Part shown: positions 21,658 to 35,180 of the stretch, in pieces
How positions within the stretch are numbered: the stretch's first letter is position 1
Layout of the letters: each line of letters starts with the position of its first letter
Made by a program: the position numbers and the translations under genes
Notes under the pieces: model-generated
The model's input: the letters and a program-made list of their open reading frames with translations, nothing else
Database searches by the model: none
What the model was told of the DNA's origin: nothing
Origin: a virus
Length of the DNA: 36,898 nucleotides
Reading direction: 5' to 3' (one strand)
Virus record (IMG/VR): IMGVR_UViG_3300032356_000006
Location: 1 to 36,898 of that record

Positions 21658-22428
21658 CTAGAGCGGGTCAAGTTCTGGCAACTGGTCACCCATAGTCGTG
21701 AGTGGGTCAGGTAGACCAGACAGCTTGAATCCCCATTCGCGTGTGATGCAAGCTGGGCAGGTTCCACACGGTGGACGCTCACCACGATAACACGTGTGCG
21801 TGTACGGGTAGAGTATCTGGTAAGCCTGTAGGTCATCTGCCAACCAGTTTATGCGTGCTTTGTCCAGGTAGAGGAGTGGTGCGTGAATCTTGACTTCCCA
21901 CTCCATACCCTGACGCAGTGATTCTTCTAGCGGTGGGAACACATCTGGTCGACAGTCTGGGTACCCTACCCAGTCCGCAAAGTTGACTCCTATCACCAAG
22001 TGGTGGCTATCCACACTGTACGCGTACATCGCACCCAGAACCAGGAACAACAGATTCCGACCAGGTACGAAGGTGGTGGGGAGCACTCCACGACCACCTT
22101 GCCACGCGATGTCCAAGTTGCTTGCCCGAACGAGAGACGTCGTACGAGAGAGTAACCGGCTGACCTCAGAGATGTCTATTATCTCGTGTCCAGCCAGTTC
22201 CCCAATCCGAGCGATTGTCTTAGCTGCACGGAGCTCGAGGTCTAACGTCTGTCCGTACTTGAAGGTGACAGCATACACCTTCCGGAAGTACCTCTTCGCC
22301 CACATCACACACGTCGCAGTATCCTGTCCACCGGACAGTACCACAACCGCACTACCACGAGGAATCTCCGGCAGGACGACTCCTGGGTACTTATGCCATC
22401 GCACTTCCCAATCATCCAATCGTCTCAT
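21658..22428 (-). CDS. queC: QueC paralogue B (7-cyano-7-deazaguanine synthase), 256 aa
   Basis: QueC turns 7-carboxy-7-deazaguanine (CDG) into preQ0 with ATP and ammonia, through an amide (ADG) intermediate. This copy is the closer one to bacterial QueC: PP-loop LSGGQDT (residues 32-37), KYGQ, FVPGRN (120-125), GYPDCR (155-160), and a complete zinc site with Cys213, Cys221, Cys224 and Cys227 in TCYRGERPPCGTCPAC. The last PP-loop residue is Thr instead of Ser. The ATG at 22428 has GGAGG six bases upstream and overlaps the other QueC gene by 17 bases. It is the last gene before the intrinsic terminator. The two tandem copies should work in the same pathway. Confidence 0.9.
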   Translation of the reverse strand: MRRLDDWEVRWHKYPGVVLPEIPRGSAVVVLSGGQDTATCVMWAKRYFRKVYAVTFKYGQTLDLELRAAKTIARIGELAGHEIIDISEVSRLLSRTTSLVRASNLDIAWQGGRGVLPTTFVPGRNLLFLVLGAMYAYSVDSHHLVIGVNFADWVGYPDCRPDVFPPLEESLRQGMEWEVKIHAPLLYLDKARINWLADDLQAYQILYPYTHTCYRGERPPCGTCPACITREWGFKLSGLPDPLTTMGDQLPELDPL

Positions 22429-23122
22429 CACTAACCTCCTCCCATAGTGGGTCTCGTACGCCAGCACGTTCGAACGCGAGACGGCGACCTACACACGACT
22501 CACAATCGCACTTCGGATCGCGTATGCCAAGGTAGCAGGTGTGCGTGTACTTCGCGAGGTCCAACGCATCCACCGCAGCCAGGTAGTGAATGGCGCCAGC
22601 TTTCTCCACCAACACGAATGGTGCGAGCACGTGGACCTCCATATTACCGCCGAGAGAGATTCTGAAGGTGGACTCCAAGTGCGTGAGAAACGCTGGTCGA
22701 CAGTCTGGGAACGCAGAATGGTCATCTCGGTGACCACCAAACGCTACGGCCGCACCACCTACAGATAGAGAGTAGCTGTACCCAAGTCCGAGCGTCAGCA
22801 ACAATATGTTCCTGAACGGAACGAACGAGGTCGACCACGTCGTGTCCTCCCACTGCTCAACCTCGGACCGTATCCCAAGGTTGCGGTTGACGAGAGACGT
22901 GTACGGTAGAGCAATCGTCCGGTGGGGTATACCCAACTTCTCGCAGATGGTCTTGGCCGACTCAATCTCTACCGCGTGAGTCTGGCCGTAGTCTACAGTC
23001 AGGGCGTGTACCCGGTGGTTCGGGTACGTGTTCAACGTCCACACAAGCGCGGCAAGCGAATCCAGTCCACCAGACACCAATACTACTGGTGTGATGGACT
23101 CAGGTATGCGTACGCTATTCAT
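22412..23122 (-). CDS. queC: QueC paralogue A (QueC-family PP-loop enzyme), 236 aa
   Basis: A second QueC-family enzyme directly before the first. It keeps the PP-loop VSGGLDS (16-22), VDYGQTHAVEI, FPDCRP (138-142) and four cysteines (Cys196, 205, 207, 210), but differs from the sister copy in three places: VPFRN instead of VPGRN, GGHRDDHSAFPDCR instead of GVxxxDWVGYPDCR, and a zinc loop with spacing 9-2-3 instead of 8-3-3 because CDC replaces CGxC. It is therefore either a second preQ0 synthase or a diverged enzyme with another substrate or end point (for example stopping at the ADG amide, or acting on the base in DNA). It overlaps the Sak4-like gene by eight bases, with GGAGG six bases before the ATG. 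Confidence 0.85.
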   Translation of the reverse strand: MNSVRIPESITPVVLVSGGLDSLAALVWTLNTYPNHRVHALTVDYGQTHAVEIESAKTICEKLGIPHRTIALPYTSLVNRNLGIRSEVEQWEDTTWSTSFVPFRNILLLTLGLGYSYSLSVGGAAVAFGGHRDDHSAFPDCRPAFLTHLESTFRISLGGNMEVHVLAPFVLVEKAGAIHYLAAVDALDLAKYTHTCYLGIRDPKCDCESCVGRRLAFERAGVRDPLWEEVSDETIG

Positions 23123-26450: not shown

Positions 26451-27215
26451 CTACTTGCGTTGTGCCACGCGAGATGGGGGCCTACCGCGCCTGGGACGAG
26501 CCTTACTCGCATCCTCCGCATAGCGTTGTGCGTCGTGTAGGTTCCGTAACACCAACTGCTGCTCCAACGGTGTCGCGGGTATCCACTCAAACAGGAACGG
26601 TGGCCGCTTCGGTTTCACCTCCGCAGTCACATACTCCGACCAGGTCATACCCCAGATGGCCGCAGTCACCGGTTTGGCTGTATCCACAGACTGAACACCA
26701 ACCAACACTTCTCCAGACCGTGGCATCCCAAGCTGGTGATACCTACCAACCTCAGGTAACACTTCCTGCCACTCACGTACAGTCGCATCCCTACCACCTA
26801 ACCCTGGGAGTGGTATACCGCCAACGATTGAAGCAAGTGTATCCTTGGGTAGCCGTTGGTACTCCTGCACCAACTCCATATGCAGTGGTAGGTAGAGTTC
26901 AATCCACGGTCGCTCCAGTAGGTACTCCAGGAGGTCCCACATCACGAACGGAACACCATCCCGAATACCGTCTGGTACCACCACACCGTTGGGGTTCAGT
27001 AACTCAACGGCACGCTTCCATCGGAGCACGGACCACGTCTTCCTCTCCCAGATGGGTGGGTCTAGTATGACGTGGGCATCTGGGAACGCACGTCTCCACG
27101 CAACCCACTGACCCAGGAGGTCGTCGGAGTCTGGGAGAATCACCATCCAGTGCCGCCACTTGTTCCCCAGACCCCACGCCAACCCAGGTCCACCGATAGC
27201 GTACACGTCTATCAC
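26451..27215 (-). CDS. dpdA: DpdA-like 7-deazaguanine DNA transglycosylase (TGT fold), 254 aa
   Basis: DpdA enzymes swap guanine in DNA for a 7-deazaguanine base, in the way that tRNA-guanine transglycosylase does in tRNA. The protein shows the superfamily pattern: VVVPDGIRDG (78-87, the first conserved Asp region), SIVGGIPLP (129-137, the strand-Gly-Ile-Pro), GRYHQLGMPRSGE (157-169, the H-x-LG motif) and VQSVDTAKPV (174-183) with Asp178 as the likely nucleophile. It is shorter than the bacterial genomic-island DpdA, similar to compact phage forms, and has a basic C-terminal tail. It starts with GTG at 27215, eight bases after GGAGG, overlapping the DUF5664-like gene. The full queuosine-type precursor pathway in the same genome strongly supports this reading. 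I saw no other candidate. Confidence 0.72.
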   Translation of the reverse strand: MIDVYAIGGPGLAWGLGNKWRHWMVILPDSDDLLGQWVAWRRAFPDAHVILDPPIWERKTWSVLRWKRAVELLNPNGVVVPDGIRDGVPFVMWDLLEYLLERPWIELYLPLHMELVQEYQRLPKDTLASIVGGIPLPGLGGRDATVREWQEVLPEVGRYHQLGMPRSGEVLVGVQSVDTAKPVTAAIWGMTWSEYVTAEVKPKRPPFLFEWIPATPLEQQLVLRNLHDAQRYAEDASKARPRRGRPPSRVAQRK

Positions 27216-27508: not shown

Positions 27509-27804
27509 TCTGTTCCTCCTCCATCGTTTGGAATCTCGTACCCACCAGCTATCCGCCTAATGGGTACACCGTGTTTGCGTAACACGTAAGCCGCGTTGTA
27601 CGCGTCTGCAACCTCTGAATCTCGTACTACTCCATTCGCAAGGCGAACGAGTAGCTTCCGCAGCTTGGGTGACAGTACACTATCCGAAGGAGACGGGTAC
27701 CACCTAGCTGGCCTATTCCCACCAGCTACACACCAGAGCCTAGGGAACCAGTGTGGTGGTACCTTCCCCTCCACAACCCAAAACCAAACCTTCTCCAACT
27801 CCAT
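27505..27804 (-). CDS. Small winged-helix-like DNA-binding protein, 99 aa
   Basis: The C-terminal half (about residues 45-90) contains a helical stretch SPKLRKLLVRLANG, then DSEVADAYNAAYVLRKHGVPIRRIAGGYEIP, which is a typical recognition helix followed by a beta-wing ending in a GGYEI motif, as in many small winged-helix phage proteins. The N-terminal half is rich in Trp and Pro. The A of the ATG overlaps the polymerase stop (TGATG). A GTG one codon earlier (27807) is better spaced from GGAGG (seven against ten bases). It may regulate the operon or bind at the replication fork. Confidence 0.6.
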   Translation of the reverse strand: MELEKVWFWVVEGKVPPHWFPRLWCVAGGNRPARWYPSPSDSVLSPKLRKLLVRLANGVVRDSEVADAYNAAYVLRKHGVPIRRIAGGYEIPNDGGGTE

Positions 27805-30179
27805 CACTCGTCGGCCTCCTCATCCAAAGACATCAGGTCCCGAAGCCCGAAATCGACATCCGGTTCCGGCAACCAATCTTCCCCCTTCGGCTTCGGAGAA
27901 ACAACCCCACTCTTCTTCGGTTCGTCAGACAGATACTGAACACCCTCACCAGTACCCGCTACAGCGAACTCTACCAACGAATCCCATCGGTACCCCTGTT
28001 TCGCCTTCACGCGCAGTGGACAGACCCCAAACCCCTTCCCGACCATCTCCAGAAGGATACCTGGGACCACCTCTTCCCAAGCCTCCTCAGGTACCTCGTA
28101 GAGTACGCTATCGTGTACGAACACGAGTGGGTGGACCTGTGGGAACTTCTTCTTGACCCGAATGAGCGCCTTCAGAGTCACATCACTCGCCGTAGACTGT
28201 ACTGGGAAGTTGACGAACTTACCAGCGTGAGAGTTCCCGGGTTGGAACCTCCTCCGTCTACCAAACACGGTACGAATCTCACCACCCGCACGCACAACCT
28301 CAACCAATCGGTTCTCCCATTCCTTGAGCTTGGGGAACTTGGAGAAGAACCGCTGTACCAATTGCGCAGTCTCGTCATACGACCGGCCAATCTCTCGCGC
28401 AATACTATCAATAGACCGCCCGTAGAGAAACCCGAACACAATCATCTTGGCCTCTCTTCGGAGGTCTGGTGTCACGTTCTGGACACCCATAATCTGTTGT
28501 GTCGCGAGAGTATGTAGGTCCTCCCCACGTCGTATCCACTCCTGTAACATCGGTTCCTCATACAGCACGGCGGCAACCACCAACTCCAACTGACTGTAGT
28601 CGACCTCCAGAAACTGGTACCCATCCCTCGCACGAATCGCCTTCCGTAACACCAACTGGTCCTCATCTGCCGCTTCAACTGACGGTATGTTCTGAACGGT
28701 GGGTCTCTCTGTGGACACCCGACCAGTCACCGTCCCGTGTAGTTTGTAGACTGGGTGAAGTACACCATCCGCTCCCGCCCACTTCTCCCAATCGGACACA
28801 ACGTTCACCAACTGCTTCAACCGCCTAGCACGTACCACGAGCTCGAGCACCCGACGTTGCTCCCGACTGAGATTCTCCCGCTCCAGATACCTCTTCAACG
28901 CCTCCCGACCGGTTGGTGTCCCTGGGTCCAACTTGACTCCCCACTCCTTCAACATCTTCATCAGGGCCTGAGGAGAGAACGGGTTCACACTCAACGCGGG
29001 CAGTACCTCGTTCGTGAGCTCCTCATTCCACCTACTAACCTCGTCCCGAACGACACTCCAGTCCACCGTCAGACCACGGTAACTGGCCTGAGTCAGATAC
29101 CAATTCGCCTCCCGTAAGAAGTGGTACAACTGCCACGTATCCTCCTTGTCCATCCACTTGCACAACTCCTCATACAACCTATACGTCATCACGCAGTCTA
29201 TAGCGTTGTACCTCGCCAAGATGTCCGGTGGTACCAACGAGAACGACTTACGCCACTCTTTTTGAATAAGGTGCTTCCAACTCACGTCCCAGAAGTACCC
29301 ACACAACGCCTCCAACCCACCACCCATAGACTGGTCTGAATCTAAAGTGTACGCCATTAGCAGGGTGCAGTCCATCTCCGGACACGCTACCTTGTCACCC
29401 CACCAGAACCACCACCGCAACATCTCAAAGGACGCATTATGAGCAACAAACCGACGGCCACTACCTAGAAAGGCGTAGAACTCTGGGTCCTCAGTGAACT
29501 CCCTCGGTACGATGACCGTACGACTCCCATCAGAGAACCCACACAATATCATCTCTGCGGTAAGTGGTATATCTGCGGTCTCCACGTCAAACGCAACCAC
29601 CTCTCCCAACTGGTGGAGCTCACGTAGACTGGATGCATCGGTCACGACGACATAGTCCACCACGGGTGCACCAGTCTCATCCACTTGGAACGTCAGACGT
29701 TCCTCCGGTCGTTGTGTGGACCACTTCCGCACGTCCAACTCAAACACTTGGTGCCACCTATCCGACCGAATGATTGCACTGGGGTGGTACGTGGGCAGTA
29801 CCCAGAACCCCTGAAGTTGATACCACCTACCCCGTAGGTCCTGGACTGCACCACGCAACCCAAACGCGGTAGCCGCAGTATGTCCGAGCGCCAGAACGTA
29901 TCGGACACCCCGTTCCTGCAACTCGGACAGAAGTCTGGGAACGTTCGCCTTCACAACCTCCGCCGAAGGAGGAGTACCTGGTAGATACGGCTCCAGAACC
30001 ACGTTTGTAATATAGGTATCCTCCTCCGACCGATAGCGACGGAGAACGTCCCGGAGGTACCGTCCGGAGGGGCCCACAAACGGCATCCCTACCGAGGCCT
30101 CCTCCGGACCTGGTGCCTCTCCGACCACCGCGTACTCCGTCTGAGCTGGTCCAACTCCAAGCACGCGTTGGAACCTCAT
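27804..30179 (-). CDS. DNA polymerase I with N-terminal UDG-like domain, 791 aa
   Basis: The replicative polymerase. Residues 16-145 form a uracil-DNA-glycosylase-like domain (GEAPGPEE...GMPFVGPSGRYL and LPTYHPSA) that lacks the iron-sulphur cysteines of family-4 enzymes (TNVVLEP in place of a TNVVKCRP-type segment). A 3'-5' exonuclease domain follows, with FDVET (197-201), HNASFE (247-252, Glu instead of the usual Asp) and YNAIDC (324-329). The family A polymerase core has motif A DYSQLE (527-532), motif B RREAKMIVFGFLYG (574-587) with Phe at the position that selects against dideoxynucleotides, and motif C VHDS (689-692). The start is the ATG at 30179 just after the SSB stop. Fusions of this kind occur in other phages such as SPO1. 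Confidence 0.92.
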   Translation of the reverse strand: MRFQRVLGVGPAQTEYAVVGEAPGPEEASVGMPFVGPSGRYLRDVLRRYRSEEDTYITNVVLEPYLPGTPPSAEVVKANVPRLLSELQERGVRYVLALGHTAATAFGLRGAVQDLRGRWYQLQGFWVLPTYHPSAIIRSDRWHQVFELDVRKWSTQRPEERLTFQVDETGAPVVDYVVVTDASSLRELHQLGEVVAFDVETADIPLTAEMILCGFSDGSRTVIVPREFTEDPEFYAFLGSGRRFVAHNASFEMLRWWFWWGDKVACPEMDCTLLMAYTLDSDQSMGGGLEALCGYFWDVSWKHLIQKEWRKSFSLVPPDILARYNAIDCVMTYRLYEELCKWMDKEDTWQLYHFLREANWYLTQASYRGLTVDWSVVRDEVSRWNEELTNEVLPALSVNPFSPQALMKMLKEWGVKLDPGTPTGREALKRYLERENLSREQRRVLELVVRARRLKQLVNVVSDWEKWAGADGVLHPVYKLHGTVTGRVSTERPTVQNIPSVEAADEDQLVLRKAIRARDGYQFLEVDYSQLELVVAAVLYEEPMLQEWIRRGEDLHTLATQQIMGVQNVTPDLRREAKMIVFGFLYGRSIDSIAREIGRSYDETAQLVQRFFSKFPKLKEWENRLVEVVRAGGEIRTVFGRRRRFQPGNSHAGKFVNFPVQSTASDVTLKALIRVKKKFPQVHPLVFVHDSVLYEVPEEAWEEVVPGILLEMVGKGFGVCPLRVKAKQGYRWDSLVEFAVAGTGEGVQYLSDEPKKSGVVSPKPKGEDWLPEPDVDFGLRDLMSLDEEADE

Positions 30180-30183
30180 CGCA

Positions 30184-30657
30184 TTACCCACCTTCAGAGA
30201 ACACGTCAACGTCACCGCCAACGGTCACGGTTTGTACTTGACCCGGTGCACGAGGTGGCGGTGGAGCCTGACCAGCAGCTGGTGCTGGCACTGGTGCTCC
30301 ACTGACCGGCACAATCCGAACAATCTCTGGTCTCGTCTGGCCTTCCCACTCACGGTTCTCTATCGTGACCATCACTTCACGACCTAGAACGTGAGAGGTG
30401 TCAAAGTCCACAAGGCCACCTTGCACGTTGATACCAACTGCGTTCAGCAGCTGTGAAAGTCGCCATACACCCGCACCAGACAACGGCGTCCCGTGACGAA
30501 TGGGAACCTCACGCCCGTTGTACTGCACAGCGATACTCCACTCGAGGTACGGCCGGCCAGCTTGACTCACGCGCTGTTCTACCGACCGAATCACCGCACG
30601 ATACTCGCCTGGTGCCACCTGAGGTGACAGCTCCGAAAAGTCAGCTCGTACTATCAT
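30184..30657 (-). CDS. Single-stranded DNA-binding protein-like (DUF669-type), 157 aa
   Basis: First gene of the leftward replication operon. Residues 1-115 resemble the OB-fold DUF669 phage proteins: a PGEYRAVIRSVEQRVSQAGRPYLEW segment, a central AGVWRLSQLLNAVGI helix and MVTIENREWEG strands. After it comes a Pro/Ala-rich linker (118-140) and a short acidic tail, GGDVDVFSEGG. This order (OB core, flexible linker, acidic tip) is that of SSB proteins, in which the tail binds partners. It probably coats ssDNA at the fork together with the polymerase directly downstream. The start at 30657 has GGAGG six bases upstream. Confidence 0.7.
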   Translation of the reverse strand: MIVRADFSELSPQVAPGEYRAVIRSVEQRVSQAGRPYLEWSIAVQYNGREVPIRHGTPLSGAGVWRLSQLLNAVGINVQGGLVDFDTSHVLGREVMVTIENREWEGQTRPEIVRIVPVSGAPVPAPAAGQAPPPPRAPGQVQTVTVGGDVDVFSEGG

Positions 30658-30851: not shown

Positions 30852-31235
30852 ATGACCTATCGGATATGCAAACGGTTCCACTTTGCAGCTGGTCACCAGC
30901 TGACGAGAGTACCACCTGGCCATAAGTGCGCCAGGCTCCACGGCCACAATTACGTCGTGGAGGTTGTCGCCGAGACGAAGACCCTCACCGAAGAGGGATG
31001 GGTCGTAGACTTCGCAGACCTACGGAAGCTAAAGGACTGGTGCGAGTCCAATTGGGACCATAGAATCCTGAACGACCTGTGGCCATTCTCCACCGGGGTG
31101 GAGACCACCGTGGAGAACATCGCAGCAGTCCTAGTCCGAGTAGGTAGAGACCTTGGCCTACCCATCACCAGAGTCCGAGTATGGGAATCTCCAGATTCGT
31201 ATGCCGAGGCCATATGGGAGGACCCAGATGAGTAA
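30852..31235 (+). CDS. queD: QueD, 6-carboxy-5,6,7,8-tetrahydropterin synthase, 127 aa
   Basis: QueD converts 7,8-dihydroneopterin triphosphate (from FolE) into 6-carboxytetrahydropterin, the second step to preQ0. The zinc triad is His15 (AAGHQL), His30 and His32 (LHGHNY), with the catalytic Cys26 in HKCARLHGHNY. The Asp/His of NWDHRILND and Glu of WESPDSYAEA follow. Length is normal for the QueD/PTPS family. The Cys-x3-His-x-His form fits QueD rather than eukaryotic PTPS. The ATG at 30852 has GGAGG six bases upstream. It is first in its operon and overlaps queE. Confidence 0.95.
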   Translation: MTYRICKRFHFAAGHQLTRVPPGHKCARLHGHNYVVEVVAETKTLTEEGWVVDFADLRKLKDWCESNWDHRILNDLWPFSTGVETTVENIAAVLVRVGRDLGLPITRVRVWESPDSYAEAIWEDPDE

Positions 31236-31974
31236 ACCGCTACCCATCATAGAAATCTTCGGTCCAACCTTGCAAGGAGAAGGTCCACTCATCGGATACC
31301 GAACGATGTTCGTGCGGTTCGGTGGGTGCAACTACCGATGCTCTTGGTGCGATACCCTCTATGCGGTCTTACCAGAGGAGGTCAAAGCGAATGCGACGTG
31401 GATGACCCCAGAGCAGATTGCGAAGACCATTCAAGCGTACCGAGAGTTCGTACCGTGGGTGACCTTCAGTGGTGGGAACCCCTGTATCCATAACCTCGCG
31501 GACCTCATCACACACCTTCACGGGGATTGGTGGCGTATCTGCATAGAGACGCAAGGTGACCCAACAAAGGCACCGAAGTGGTTCTGGTTGCTGGGTGAAC
31601 CGGATGTGGTAGTGTGGTCACCCAAACCACCGTCATCCCAAATGGTCTACGACCACGAATCTGCAGAGACGTGGGTCAAGTCCGTACCCAGCGACATCCC
31701 ACACCACCTGAAGGTTGTGGTGATGGACGAGATTGACCTGGAGTGGACGAAGTCCCTACTGTACTTCCTGAGAGACCACAAACTGGATGCCTACCTCTCG
31801 TCCAAAACGATTCAAGTGGGGACCGACCAAACACCAGAAGCAGTCCAATCCATCCTAGACCGCGGTAGGTGGTTGTGGGAGACCATCTGTGCCGACCACG
31901 ATGATATCTGGTCGGATGTTCGCGTGCTACCTCAGTGGCACGTCCTAACCTTTGGACCAAAGCGAGGTGTCTGA
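31228..31974 (+). CDS. queE: QueE, 7-carboxy-7-deazaguanine synthase, 248 aa
   Basis: A radical SAM enzyme that contracts the pterin ring to CDG, the core of all 7-deazaguanines. The family marks are IEIFGPTLQGEG (8-19), the cluster motif CNYRCSWCD, in which three cysteines hold the 4Fe-4S cluster, and SGGNP around residue 90. The usual radical-SAM GGEP has Asn instead of Glu here. The ATG at 31228 overlaps the end of queD, with GGAGG six bases upstream. A longer in-frame start at 31153 lies within queD and lacks a ribosome site. The stop overlaps the first methyltransferase-like gene. Confidence 0.95.
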   Translation: MSKPLPIIEIFGPTLQGEGPLIGYRTMFVRFGGCNYRCSWCDTLYAVLPEEVKANATWMTPEQIAKTIQAYREFVPWVTFSGGNPCIHNLADLITHLHGDWWRICIETQGDPTKAPKWFWLLGEPDVVVWSPKPPSSQMVYDHESAETWVKSVPSDIPHHLKVVVMDEIDLEWTKSLLYFLRDHKLDAYLSSKTIQVGTDQTPEAVQSILDRGRWLWETICADHDDIWSDVRVLPQWHVLTFGPKRGV

Positions 31975-33020
31975 TGATGATGACCAATCCAAAACCGAAG
32001 CGGGCGTACACCGCACCCTACTGGGGAACGCAACTCGTGGAGACCTATCCACGGAGACTGATGGACCTGATAGCAGAACAAGGAGCGTACGCCGACCTAA
32101 CAGCCGGTGGTGGTAGATACCCATACCACGTCCACACGGAGCTGGGAGTACCCGTAGTAATCAACGACCGCAACCCGTATGTGGTGTCGTACCACCGTTC
32201 GGTCTTCACGTTCCCTTGGCCTTCCAAACCGTGGTCAGAGTGGTTGGAGTTGGCGACAGAGATAACTGACCCGCTGAAGGTGCAACCGGTAGACGGTCTT
32301 ATCACACAAGACCACCAACTTCTACTACCCACAGAAACCAAACAGTACCTAGACGGTCTTACGACACGCGAAGGACCACTACCGACCTTCATCTTACGTG
32401 CAGCAGTAGCAGCTTCACTCCTTACCCACTGTAGCTATAGAGGGTATGGGTGGGCGAAGACGACAACAGAAAAAGCGCTCGTGTCAACCATTCCACCGAA
32501 CACCGTTCGGTCGTGGGTCATTCAGAGAATCCACATCCTATACCAATATGGTGCGCACACCAAACCACACCTCTGTCGTGTCCACAACACCGACTTGTTC
32601 ACCTGGGACCCAACCACGTGGCCACCTTTCCCAGAGAACACGGTCGTCTACACAGACCCAGCCTGGCCGTGGAACGAAGCGAACAGTTCAGCTGGCTCAA
32701 AGAACCCGTACGAGTTCCTCACGCACCTTGGTCACATCACACACCAACTACCACCATCACCAACGACAAGGTTCTGGACTCGCAAACAACCAGCAGAGGA
32801 GATTGTTGGAGACGTCCTCAAGTGGATGCACAACGCCAAATCGTTGGGCGCCAAGTTCTTCGTTGTCTCCACACAATCCACCAACTACCCTCCAGTGGAG
32901 ACCGTCTACAACCTCCTCCAAAAACACCACGAACTCCTGTGGAGGGACAAAACACCCGTACGGTCTACGTTCTCTAAAAGCACGCTCACAGACGAGTTCG
33001 GGTGTTTCAAACTTGAGTAG
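31974..33020 (+). CDS. D12-class (Dam-fold) methyltransferase-like protein 1, 348 aa
   Basis: The order of motifs matches the D12/alpha class of adenine-N6 DNA methyltransferases: a Dam-like N-terminal segment (APYWGTQLVETYPRRLMDLI, 14-33), the SAM-binding motif I DLTAGGGR (41-48), VINDRNP (62-68), a CSYRGYGWAKTT segment (153-164) and motif IV VVYTDPAWPW (224-233), where DPAW stands for the usual DPPY. It has a paralogue at 33241-34263. Being inside queD-queE-folE, it could methylate adenines as an extra protection layer or modify the deazaguanine base itself. The change in motif IV makes the target uncertain. Three ATGs in a row follow the queE stop; the first has GAGG six bases upstream. 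Confidence 0.65.
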   Translation: MMMTNPKPKRAYTAPYWGTQLVETYPRRLMDLIAEQGAYADLTAGGGRYPYHVHTELGVPVVINDRNPYVVSYHRSVFTFPWPSKPWSEWLELATEITDPLKVQPVDGLITQDHQLLLPTETKQYLDGLTTREGPLPTFILRAAVAASLLTHCSYRGYGWAKTTTEKALVSTIPPNTVRSWVIQRIHILYQYGAHTKPHLCRVHNTDLFTWDPTTWPPFPENTVVYTDPAWPWNEANSSAGSKNPYEFLTHLGHITHQLPPSPTTRFWTRKQPAEEIVGDVLKWMHNAKSLGAKFFVVSTQSTNYPPVETVYNLLQKHHELLWRDKTPVRSTFSKSTLTDEFGCFKLE

Positions 33021-33031
33021 GAGGACGAACG

Positions 33032-33247
33032 ATGTCATTCAGCAACCAATACCGATTGGTACCTGCGGCACCAGAGTGGGACCCAAGAGAACCACTCCAG
33101 AGTGTCCTACGAGAACGCTACGGCAAATCGTTCCAGCACCTGGTGATGACAGACCAGGTCAATAACCTGTGTGTTGCCATCGTCAACGACCAGTCAGTCA
33201 CCCACAGATACGAACGCCTATCTGGTGGGAAGGTGGTTCTATGGTGA
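33032..33247 (+). CDS. Hypothetical protein between the two methyltransferase-like genes, 71 aa
   Basis: A short gene with an excellent ribosome site (GGAGG seven bases before the ATG at 33032). Its stop overlaps the next gene's start (ATGGTGA), so the downstream methyltransferase-like protein is likely translated by coupling. The sequence starts polar (SFSNQYRLVPAAPEWDPREP), then has a beta-like middle (LCVAIVNDQSVTHRYERLSGGKVVLW). No motif recognised. It could be a small partner of one of its neighbours. Confidence 0.68.
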   Translation: MSFSNQYRLVPAAPEWDPREPLQSVLRERYGKSFQHLVMTDQVNNLCVAIVNDQSVTHRYERLSGGKVVLW

Positions 33248-34263
33248 CCAAAGTCCCAAACGCCCCAAGCGAAATGTGGTTCTACACCCTACCGTATTGG
33301 GGAGTTCAGTGGTGGGACAACCTACCGCAACCTATGCGGTCGTTGATTGAGTCGGCACCGTACTTTGTGGACCTAACCTGTGGCAGTGGTCGGGTTCCAG
33401 CTACCGTTGCGGTGAAGAAGGGCATCCCGTGCACCATCAACGACTGGAACCCACTCGTAACCAGTCACCACCGAATGGTGTTCTGCGACCCAACTCTACC
33501 GAAGGAGTACGAAGCCATCACCCACCGCTTGTACCCAGATAACGTCGTACCCGTCTACGGTCGCGTCTGTCAGGAGGACAAGTTGCCGTTACCGGATGAG
33601 ACGAAGGCGTACCTGGATGGTATCCTCTGTCAGGAGACGGATGTCGCAAGAGCCATCGTCGGTGCGTTCCTCACCAGCTGCAGCTTCAGAACCTATGGGT
33701 GGAGCACAACCACTGCGGATGGTGGTGTGAAGCTAAGGGATATCACGCCAACCCTTGCGTATACCTACCTTCTCAGGCGGTTGCATAGAGCGCAGAGGTC
33801 GGCTGGTAAGCCGAAGGCGAAAGTCACGGTGACCGAGACCGACCTCGCTCAACCCCACTGGACCATCCCCGTAGAACCTGGTGCGGTCGTGTGGGTAGAC
33901 CCAATCTGGCCCATTCCAGAGAAACCACCGGAGACCTACGAGTTCCTCTTCCACGTCGGATACCTCATCTCTGGCGTCAGGAGGGAACCACTGTGGTGGC
34001 CGTACGGAGCAGCCTACCCTACTCAGAAGCTCCTCCGGTGGATGTCGTATTGTGCCGAGTGTGGTGCGTCCACCTTCATCATCTCCACCCGGTCGGATGC
34101 GTGGCCGACACCGTACGACCTCTTCCAGGACCTCTCTCGACACGTACCACCCCTGTGGATTGTCGCTACCAAGGAACGCTCTCTTGGCGGTAAGACGTTC
34201 ACGGAGTGGTGGCTCGCCTTTGACCTAAACCCAAAACCTAACAAGGAGGTGACACACCTATGA
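33241..34263 (+). CDS. D12-class (Dam-fold) methyltransferase-like protein 2, 340 aa
   Basis: A paralogue of 31974-33020 with the same order: LPYWGVQWWDNLPQPMRSLI (17-36), motif I DLTCGSGR (44-51), TINDWNP (65-71), SCSFRTYGWSTTT (146-158), motif IV VVWVDPIWPI (216-225) with DPIW for DPPY, then STFIISTR and a C-terminal basic segment. The two copies are diverged in most other positions, so this is not a recent duplication. A heterodimer or two-step reaction is possible. I start at the ATG at 33241 overlapping the preceding stop. The open frame to 33169 has no ribosome site. Confidence 0.65.
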   Translation: MVTKVPNAPSEMWFYTLPYWGVQWWDNLPQPMRSLIESAPYFVDLTCGSGRVPATVAVKKGIPCTINDWNPLVTSHHRMVFCDPTLPKEYEAITHRLYPDNVVPVYGRVCQEDKLPLPDETKAYLDGILCQETDVARAIVGAFLTSCSFRTYGWSTTTADGGVKLRDITPTLAYTYLLRRLHRAQRSAGKPKAKVTVTETDLAQPHWTIPVEPGAVVWVDPIWPIPEKPPETYEFLFHVGYLISGVRREPLWWPYGAAYPTQKLLRWMSYCAECGASTFIISTRSDAWPTPYDLFQDLSRHVPPLWIVATKERSLGGKTFTEWWLAFDLNPKPNKEVTHL

Positions 34264-34499
34264 CCCCCATCAAACTCATCATCAAACCCAACCCGGAGAT
34301 AGGGCAGACGCACGAACAGGTCCGCGTCATCAACGGGCCCTATGAGCTGGTGGCGGAGCAACGAGATGGCCGCATCGTCTTCACCGTCCTACACACCGGT
34401 GGTCCATCCACGTTCGCATCCACCCACTTCACGTCCCCACACGACCTGTTGGTTGCGGTGACGATAGGGGCACCCATAGAGTGCACGCTCGTGGAGTAA
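34260..34499 (+). CDS. Hypothetical protein, 79 aa
   Basis: The ATG at 34260 overlaps the stop of methyltransferase-like gene 2, with GGAGG ten bases upstream. The protein looks like a small alpha/beta or all-beta domain (VRVINGPYELVAEQRDGRIVFTVLHTGG, then DLLVAVTIGAPIECTL). It has no cysteine cluster and no catalytic motif that I know. A stem-loop separates it from folE. Confidence 0.65.
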   Translation: MTPIKLIIKPNPEIGQTHEQVRVINGPYELVAEQRDGRIVFTVLHTGGPSTFASTHFTSPHDLLVAVTIGAPIECTLVE

Positions 34500-34559: not shown

Positions 34560-35180
34560 ATGAAGACACCATACGACCTTGACGGGTTACCCAAAGAGCT
34601 GGTCGCACTAGCGGACACCATCCGCACCTTCCTCGCCACGCTACCGGTGGACGACGAGGTCCGAGCCAACACACCAAACCGGTTCGTCAAGGCCCTCTAC
34701 GACTGCCTAGAGGGCTACCGCCAGGACGTCACGGACCACCTCAAGCTCTTCCCCGACGACGACGTAGACCACGGGAATGGGGAGGTGGTCATCGTCAACG
34801 TCCCGTTCTACTCGCTCTGCGAGCACCACCTCCTACCTTTCTTCGGGACGATGACGGTGGCGTACGTCCCATCCGACCACGTCCTGGGGCTCAGCAAACT
34901 GAACCGCATCGTGCACACCTTCGCCAGACGCCTGCAGCTCCAGGAACGCCTCACGGAGCAGGTCGTGACCACCCTCCTGTCGCCACCGGTGAACGCGAGG
35001 GGCGCACTAGCGGTGAGCCGAGCTCGCCATATGTGTGTGGAGATGCGTGGAGTTCGCCAGGTCACCACGACGACCGTCGTCCACTACGGTGGCTGCCTCC
35101 GACCCGACACGGAGTGGTGGAAGTCCGTGGCACCTTTGGTGGAGCGCGAGACCAAGTCCATCCCACCGTTGGACGTCTGA
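34560..35180 (+). CDS. folE: GTP cyclohydrolase I (FolE), 206 aa
   Basis: FolE opens GTP to give 7,8-dihydroneopterin triphosphate, the entry step of both folate and 7-deazaguanine synthesis. The zinc site is Cys87 and His90 in SLCEHHLLPF, and Cys159 in ARHMCVEMRGV. The core GLSKLNRIVHTFARRLQLQERLTEQ is fully conserved. Length is that of normal type IA enzymes. With no folate genes around, it serves the preQ0 route here. The start at 34560 is preceded by GGAG. It closes the rightward operon, and a long non-coding, structured region follows. Confidence 0.96.
   Translation: MKTPYDLDGLPKELVALADTIRTFLATLPVDDEVRANTPNRFVKALYDCLEGYRQDVTDHLKLFPDDDVDHGNGEVVIVNVPFYSLCEHHLLPFFGTMTVAYVPSDHVLGLSKLNRIVHTFARRLQLQERLTEQVVTTLLSPPVNARGALAVSRARHMCVEMRGVRQVTTTTVVHYGGCLRPDTEWWKSVAPLVERETKSIPPLDV

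Follow-up and report, generated by a model that had tools for sequence, protein, structure and literature searches.

A putative D12/Dam-derived methyltransferase-like family accompanying 7-deazaguanine genes in two distant phage lineages

In T4Dam, a member of the D12/Dam class, two parts of motif IV, the Asp and the carbonyl of the first Pro, contact the target amino group and the Tyr stacks, while Lys 11 of motif X positions the catalytic Asp and contacts adenine N1; Lys-to-Ala mutants at motif X are inactive in RlmJ and M.EcoRV (PMC3814359). Both sites were invariant in our D12 comparison set (n = 15; E. coli Dam and 14 phage proteins), DPPY in motif IV being found in 15/15 and the motif-X Lys (K14 in Dam, K11 in T4Dam) likewise in 15/15. 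Pantoea phage MED16 carries an N6-adenine methyltransferase gene and has dADG-modified DNA (PMC8306585), M.EcoGII adds m6A to dG+ DNA in vitro (PMC5567051), and further-modified deazaguanines in phage DNA, including methylated preQ1, are credited to Cui et al. 2023 in PMC12783734.

Here we describe two genes, P1 and P2, from a window that comprises an entire virus record (IMGVR_UViG_3300032356_000006; 36,898 bases). They stand in a one-strand run, queD-queE-P1-(71 aa)-P2-(79 aa)-folE, in a phage that carries other 7-deazaguanine genes as well:

21658-22467, minus strand: queC copy 1 (PF06508, E 1.4e-55)
22412-23122, minus strand: queC copy 2 (PF06508, E 6.1e-43)
26451-27215, minus strand: dpdA-like gene, divergent TGT-type DNA transglycosylase candidate, 254 aa (hhalign)
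30852-31235, plus strand: queD, 6-carboxytetrahydropterin synthase (PF01242, E 5.7e-30)
31180-31974, plus strand: queE, 7-carboxy-7-deazaguanine synthase (TIGR03365, above cut-off)
31974-33020, plus strand: P1, putative D12/Dam-derived methyltransferase-like protein, 348 aa (intact ORF, motifs, profile alignment)
33032-33247, plus strand: 71-aa gene between P1 and P2, no family
33241-34263, plus strand: P2, P1 paralogue, 340 aa (intact ORF, motifs, profile alignment)
34260-34499, plus strand: 79-aa gene after P2, no family
34560-35180, plus strand: folE, GTP cyclohydrolase I (PF01227, E 6e-46)

Starts and stops overlap along the run (TGATG at the queE stop and P1 start, 7 bases between the 71-aa gene and the start of P2, an ATGA-type overlap between the end of P2 and the 79-aa gene), and the genes from queD to folE appear to be translationally coupled. 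Compared with contig IMGVR_UViG_3300032056_000004, the operon and the queC genes showed clear purifying selection, except for the shortest genes. The original prediction had placed two ORFs of 348 and 340 aa with shared motifs between queE and folE; both ORFs and all of the motifs were found, and Pfam and NCBIfam confirmed QueD, QueE and FolE as the neighbours. It had overlooked the two queC genes, the dpdA-like gene and the replacement of the motif-X Lys by Gln. The right end of the genome (35180-36898, about 1.7 kb) holds no convincing gene and is crowded with repeats, which are degenerate 8-base ones (AGACCTAC-like), direct ones of 100 bases, and inverted ones.

The genes for preQ0 synthesis (folE, queD, queE and queC) are all present in the window, queC twice. 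The two queC copies are arranged in tandem, overlap and are 36% identical, and one of them may have taken on another step of deazaguanine conversion. The cysteine spacing of copy 2 is shifted (CYLGIRDPKCDCESC). No TGT or DpdA match was obtained in the window by Pfam or plain BLAST; the protein encoded at 26451-27215 aligned by hhalign with a profile of four proteins, namely the DpdA annotated in Flavobacterium phage immuto plus its relatives in Youna2, BSP7 and StAshley. The score was 33.0 (E 3.8e-4) over 187 columns, whereas 200 column shuffles reached at most 23.4, and the protein shares with this DpdA set the motifs LD..I.E, PD, HxLG and S(V/I)DT..P(V/L). We take it as the candidate transglycosylase of the phage, which would thus possess a full preQ0-to-DNA gene set, and under the scheme put forward by Hutinet et al. 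(PMC6884629) preQ0 genes together with a dpdA-like gene predict dPreQ0 in its DNA. The immuto DpdA relatives are annotated as hypothetical proteins (Youna2 L163:9249-10019; BSP7 L165:4201-4989; StAshley L164:6975-7775) and adjoin queuosine genes and DNA polymerase.

P1 and P2 are true paralogues, 34% identical over 337 aa (E 3e-48). The motifs of P1 are PYWGTQ (X-like), DLTAGGGR (I), NDRN (II), CSYRGYGW and TDPAWPW (IV), those of P2 PYWGVQ, DLTCGSGR, NDWN, CSFRTYGW and VDPIWPI. Against a single close relative (contig IMGVR_UViG_3300032056_000004) dN/dS was 0.17 for P1 and 0.12 for P2; both genes are held by purifying selection. Sequence searches of Pfam, NCBIfam and PDB matched neither protein, PHROGs gave nothing significant, and tblastn against phages and plasmids returned no match.

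Homologues of P1 and P2 are very rare. Single-protein and alignment searches and two pattern scans yielded a near-identical phage as the sole match; the patterns (YGW with DPxWP, and motifs I and II at fixed spacing) hit only this phage or unrelated proteins. Scanning with a third pattern (YWG ... DLTxGxGR) and then searching by profile led to a distant virus of 177,637 bases (IMGVR_UViG_3300005537_000002, hereafter G012) with three family copies, the same protein being found also on IMGVR_UViG_3300027857_000021; the family profile recovered a further member (L271) on a 5.3-kb fragment:

G012, 55961-56941: copy A (E 1e-47)
G012, 66941-68089: copy B (matched at 67049-68068, E 2e-33)
G012, 76143-77207: copy C (matched at 76200-76913, E 5e-13)
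L271, 2303-3265, plus strand: family member on the 5.3-kb fragment (E 6e-17)

In G012, copies A to C flank QueD, QueE, FolE, DpdA and a Gat-QueC fusion in one stretch; its DpdA matched the DpdA set with E 8.8e-22, and the gene set with Gat-QueC predicts dG+ in the DNA of this virus. The link with 7-deazaguanine genes that had been proposed for the window, with a search of other phages as its test, thus recurs in a distant virus. The pattern that found G012 held no deazaguanine information, and a chance meeting with a deazaguanine cluster is unlikely, because a QueE match occurs in only 199 of 50,697 phage records (about 0.4%). A family-A DNA polymerase with an N-terminal uracil-DNA-glycosylase-type domain (Pfam UDG and DNA_pol_A) is encoded at 27804-30221 (minus strand) of the window, and the fusion is also present in G012 (L263:983-4033, plus strand). 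The window phage and G012 share QueE (36% identity), the UDG-PolA fusion (27%) and other genes besides, which suggests that the association may be inherited, as an old module long kept and not twice invented. Counterparts of the 71-aa and 79-aa genes were absent from the part of G012 that was searched, and for this reason the proposal of a four-gene block acting as a unit lost its support.

L271 adjoins genes that, by reading, look like terminase and portal genes, and its very incomplete genome, a 5.3-kb fragment, shows no deazaguanine genes. No cellular homologue appeared in two genome-contig scans and one small sample, and no D12-like gene of the family was present in the regions read of the QueE-bearing phages Youna2, BSP7, Dp-1 and StAshley. 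Weak phage matches at E 4-7, faecal ones included, were left out of the homologue count; a Burkholderia phage match of this kind was rejected after the family profile scored it at noise level. There was no sign that the family is common in phages lacking 7-deazaguanine genes, but it is too rare for a strong test of this point. Taken together, P1, P2 and their relatives appear to form a real D12-derived family, absent from the libraries searched, which in two distant lineages occurs together with the phage genes for 7-deazaguanine.

The D12 ancestry was first proposed from a resemblance to Dam, and it gained support from profile comparison. With members added, the family profile aligned with the 15 D12 enzymes by hhalign with E about 1e-8 (score 66-67; 225-227 columns), against shuffle controls of at most 24.8, and the alignment was collinear in the alpha-class order X-I-II-TRD-IV-C-terminus. 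With four family rows, hhalign scored the N-terminal motifs at 38.9 and, separately, the C-terminal part at 28.7, at matching Dam ends; 300 shuffles reached at most 24.9 and a reversed alignment 14.9, so that each block lay above all shuffles. The global alignment is likewise collinear and pairs PYWG-Q of the family with WAGGK of the D12 enzymes, DLTAGGG with EPFVGAG, NDRN with ADIN, and CSYR.YGW with GLCRYN; VVYTDPAW of motif IV falls unforced on VVYCDPPY. With single sequences the score against the family profile did not by itself tell D12 enzymes from others: the non-D12 enzyme Dcm scored 30.5, in the motif I region, and single D12 proteins 15-29. Therefore, what carries the D12 assignment is the deep profile together with collinearity over the full length. 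Pfam D12 (PF02086) did not match P1, P2, the whole window or the G012 copies. AlphaFold models of P1 and P2 from the four-row alignments had pLDDT values of only 40 and 44, and because of this the fold call rests on sequence profiles; fold matches to NNMT, Alba and GNAT were dropped, the models behind them being too poor. These comparisons support the descent of P1 and P2 from the D12/Dam class.

The active site was compared across six distinct members (P1, P2, G012 copies A, B and C, and L271). Motif IV reads DPAW in P1, DPIW in P2, DPAW in A, NPLW in B, DPVY in C and DPAW in L271, and is always followed by Pro (6/6). The second Pro of DPPY is lost in all six, with A, I, L or V in its place; the altered motif IV on which the original prediction was built is therefore seen in every member. 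At the motif-X Lys position P1, P2, A and B have Gln, C has neither residue, and L271 keeps Lys. P1, P2 and copy A retain GxG, the acid of motif II, D-P and the motif IV aromatic, and most members have the same kind of residue at the base-contacting positions (D, first P, aromatic). P1, P2 and A retain the amino-group contacts. Taken by itself, the altered motif IV is a weaker sign of a new target than had been held, and the Lys change is a stronger one. The replacement of Lys by Gln is the best structural hint of a changed base pocket: by analogy with the contacts in T4Dam, the Gln could serve as hydrogen-bond acceptor for the N1-H of a guanine-type base. Motif I is decayed to DVAVNSG in copy B, where the motif IV Asp has become Asn, and to ITLSAGNGG in copy C. 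The contrast with the intact copy A suggests active and inactive partners, and because of the decayed motif I some copies may be non-catalytic. L271, which keeps the Lys (HGAK) and nevertheless has DPAW, looks intermediate, standing between the D12 enzymes and proteins of the P1/P2 type.

Based on these features, we think it probable that P1 and P2 are SAM-dependent amino-methyltransferases, derived from alpha-class D12 (Dam) enzymes, which act on the phage's own DNA; catalysis and DNA as the substrate are inferred. FolE, QueD, QueE and QueC of the phage would make preQ0, the DpdA-type transglycosylase would swap guanines in DNA for preQ0, and P1 and P2, supplied by the same operon, would then flip a base out of the preQ0-bearing DNA and methylate an exocyclic amino group, which would add a second layer of protection, the order of insertion before methylation being presumed. 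As to the target, adenine N6 is our first guess, a tentative one that stops a little short of probable, because D12 enzymes act there and MED16 and M.EcoGII offer precedents. Guanine or 7-deazaguanine comes second and is unlikely, and the rest of the weight falls on other targets or on no methylation at all.

Among the alternatives, it is possible, if somewhat doubtful, that P1 and P2 are ordinary anti-restriction adenine methyltransferases, functionally unrelated to deazaguanine and neighbours of its genes since both protect DNA. D12 enzymes are common in phages (E. coli Dam has a match in 1,199 of 50,697 phage records), MED16 combines both modifications (PMC8306585), and L271 lies beside terminase with deazaguanine genes not visible; however, residues invariant in ordinary D12 enzymes are lost family-wide, the operon is tightly coupled, and the family recurs inside the cluster of the distant virus G012. 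A second alternative, which we regard as unlikely, is that the deazaguanine itself is the target: guanine or 7-deazaguanine in the DNA would be methylated on its exocyclic N2, or on some other group, yielding an undescribed base. The family sits within deazaguanine clusters in both lineages whose context is visible, and guanine-N2 methyltransferases such as RsmD likewise use motifs of the DPPY/NPPF type; to our knowledge, however, all characterised D12 enzymes make N6-methyladenine, and L271, with DPAW and a retained Lys, comes from a terminase region whose fragment shows no deazaguanine genes. The proposed pairing of Gln with the N1-H of a guanine-type base (inferred from T4Dam; PMC3814359) would fit this alternative, whereas a shared target at position 7 is unlikely because preQ0, expected in the window phage, and dG+, expected in G012, differ there, and the 7-substituent was set aside as a common target. 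In its fullest form, in which a hitherto undescribed D12-derived family has switched its target from adenine to bases of the guanine type and acts on 7-deazaguanine (e.g., methylating N2) after the DpdA step to give a doubly modified base, the idea is rather unlikely. That the pair or one member is a former methyltransferase, now a DNA-binding or structural subunit partnering DpdA or its own paralogue as METTL14 does METTL3, is improbable: the loss of the catalytic Lys in 5/6 members, the decay in copies B and C and the occurrence of copies in twos or threes wherever the genome is long enough would suit it, but the motifs intact in P1, P2 and copy A, and the constraint under which P1 and P2 evolve, argue for activity.

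Methylation of the phage's own DNA by P1 and P2 thus remains our preferred reading. Phage DNA contains more kinds of base than have been named, and new writer enzymes reveal how restriction is escaped and may become tools. Here two of the most conserved active-site features of D12 enzymes have been lost, yet selection maintains the genes, which lie within deazaguanine clusters in two viruses that differ greatly. The family is a specific, testable lead: it may point to a further step of DNA modification, or to a methyltransferase that can do without the usual lysine, and it provides a comparison for base recognition by the D12 pocket.

Set beside the D12/Dam enzymes (PF02086; E. coli Dam, T4Dam, M.DpnII), the family shares the alpha-class motif order, the GxG SAM loop, the ND.N motif II, a helical aromatic/Arg-motif region before an Asp-Pro-x-aromatic motif IV, and a matching C-terminal part; it differs in falling outside the Pfam model, in having lost the second Pro in all members and the Lys in 5/6, and in its longer proteins. 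Motif IV of the MT-A70 family is DPPW in METTL3 and EPPL in METTL14; its Trp is a stacking residue, as may be the case in P1 and P2, and its paired paralogues offer an analogy, although MT-A70 enzymes belong to a different class with a different sequence. MED16 resembles the window phage in uniting an adenine-type methyltransferase gene with deazaguanine in one phage, but its ORF32 is set apart from P1 and P2 by description, as a member of another methyltransferase superfamily (cl05442). The window, and G012 in a version with Gat-QueC, also hold the complete gene set of phage 7-deazaguanine modification (FolE, QueD, QueE, QueC or Gat-QueC, and DpdA) as in 9g, CAjan and Rosebush; unlike systems of the 9g, CAjan and Rosebush type, however, the window phage has two queC genes, interleaved D12-like genes and a short, divergent DpdA.
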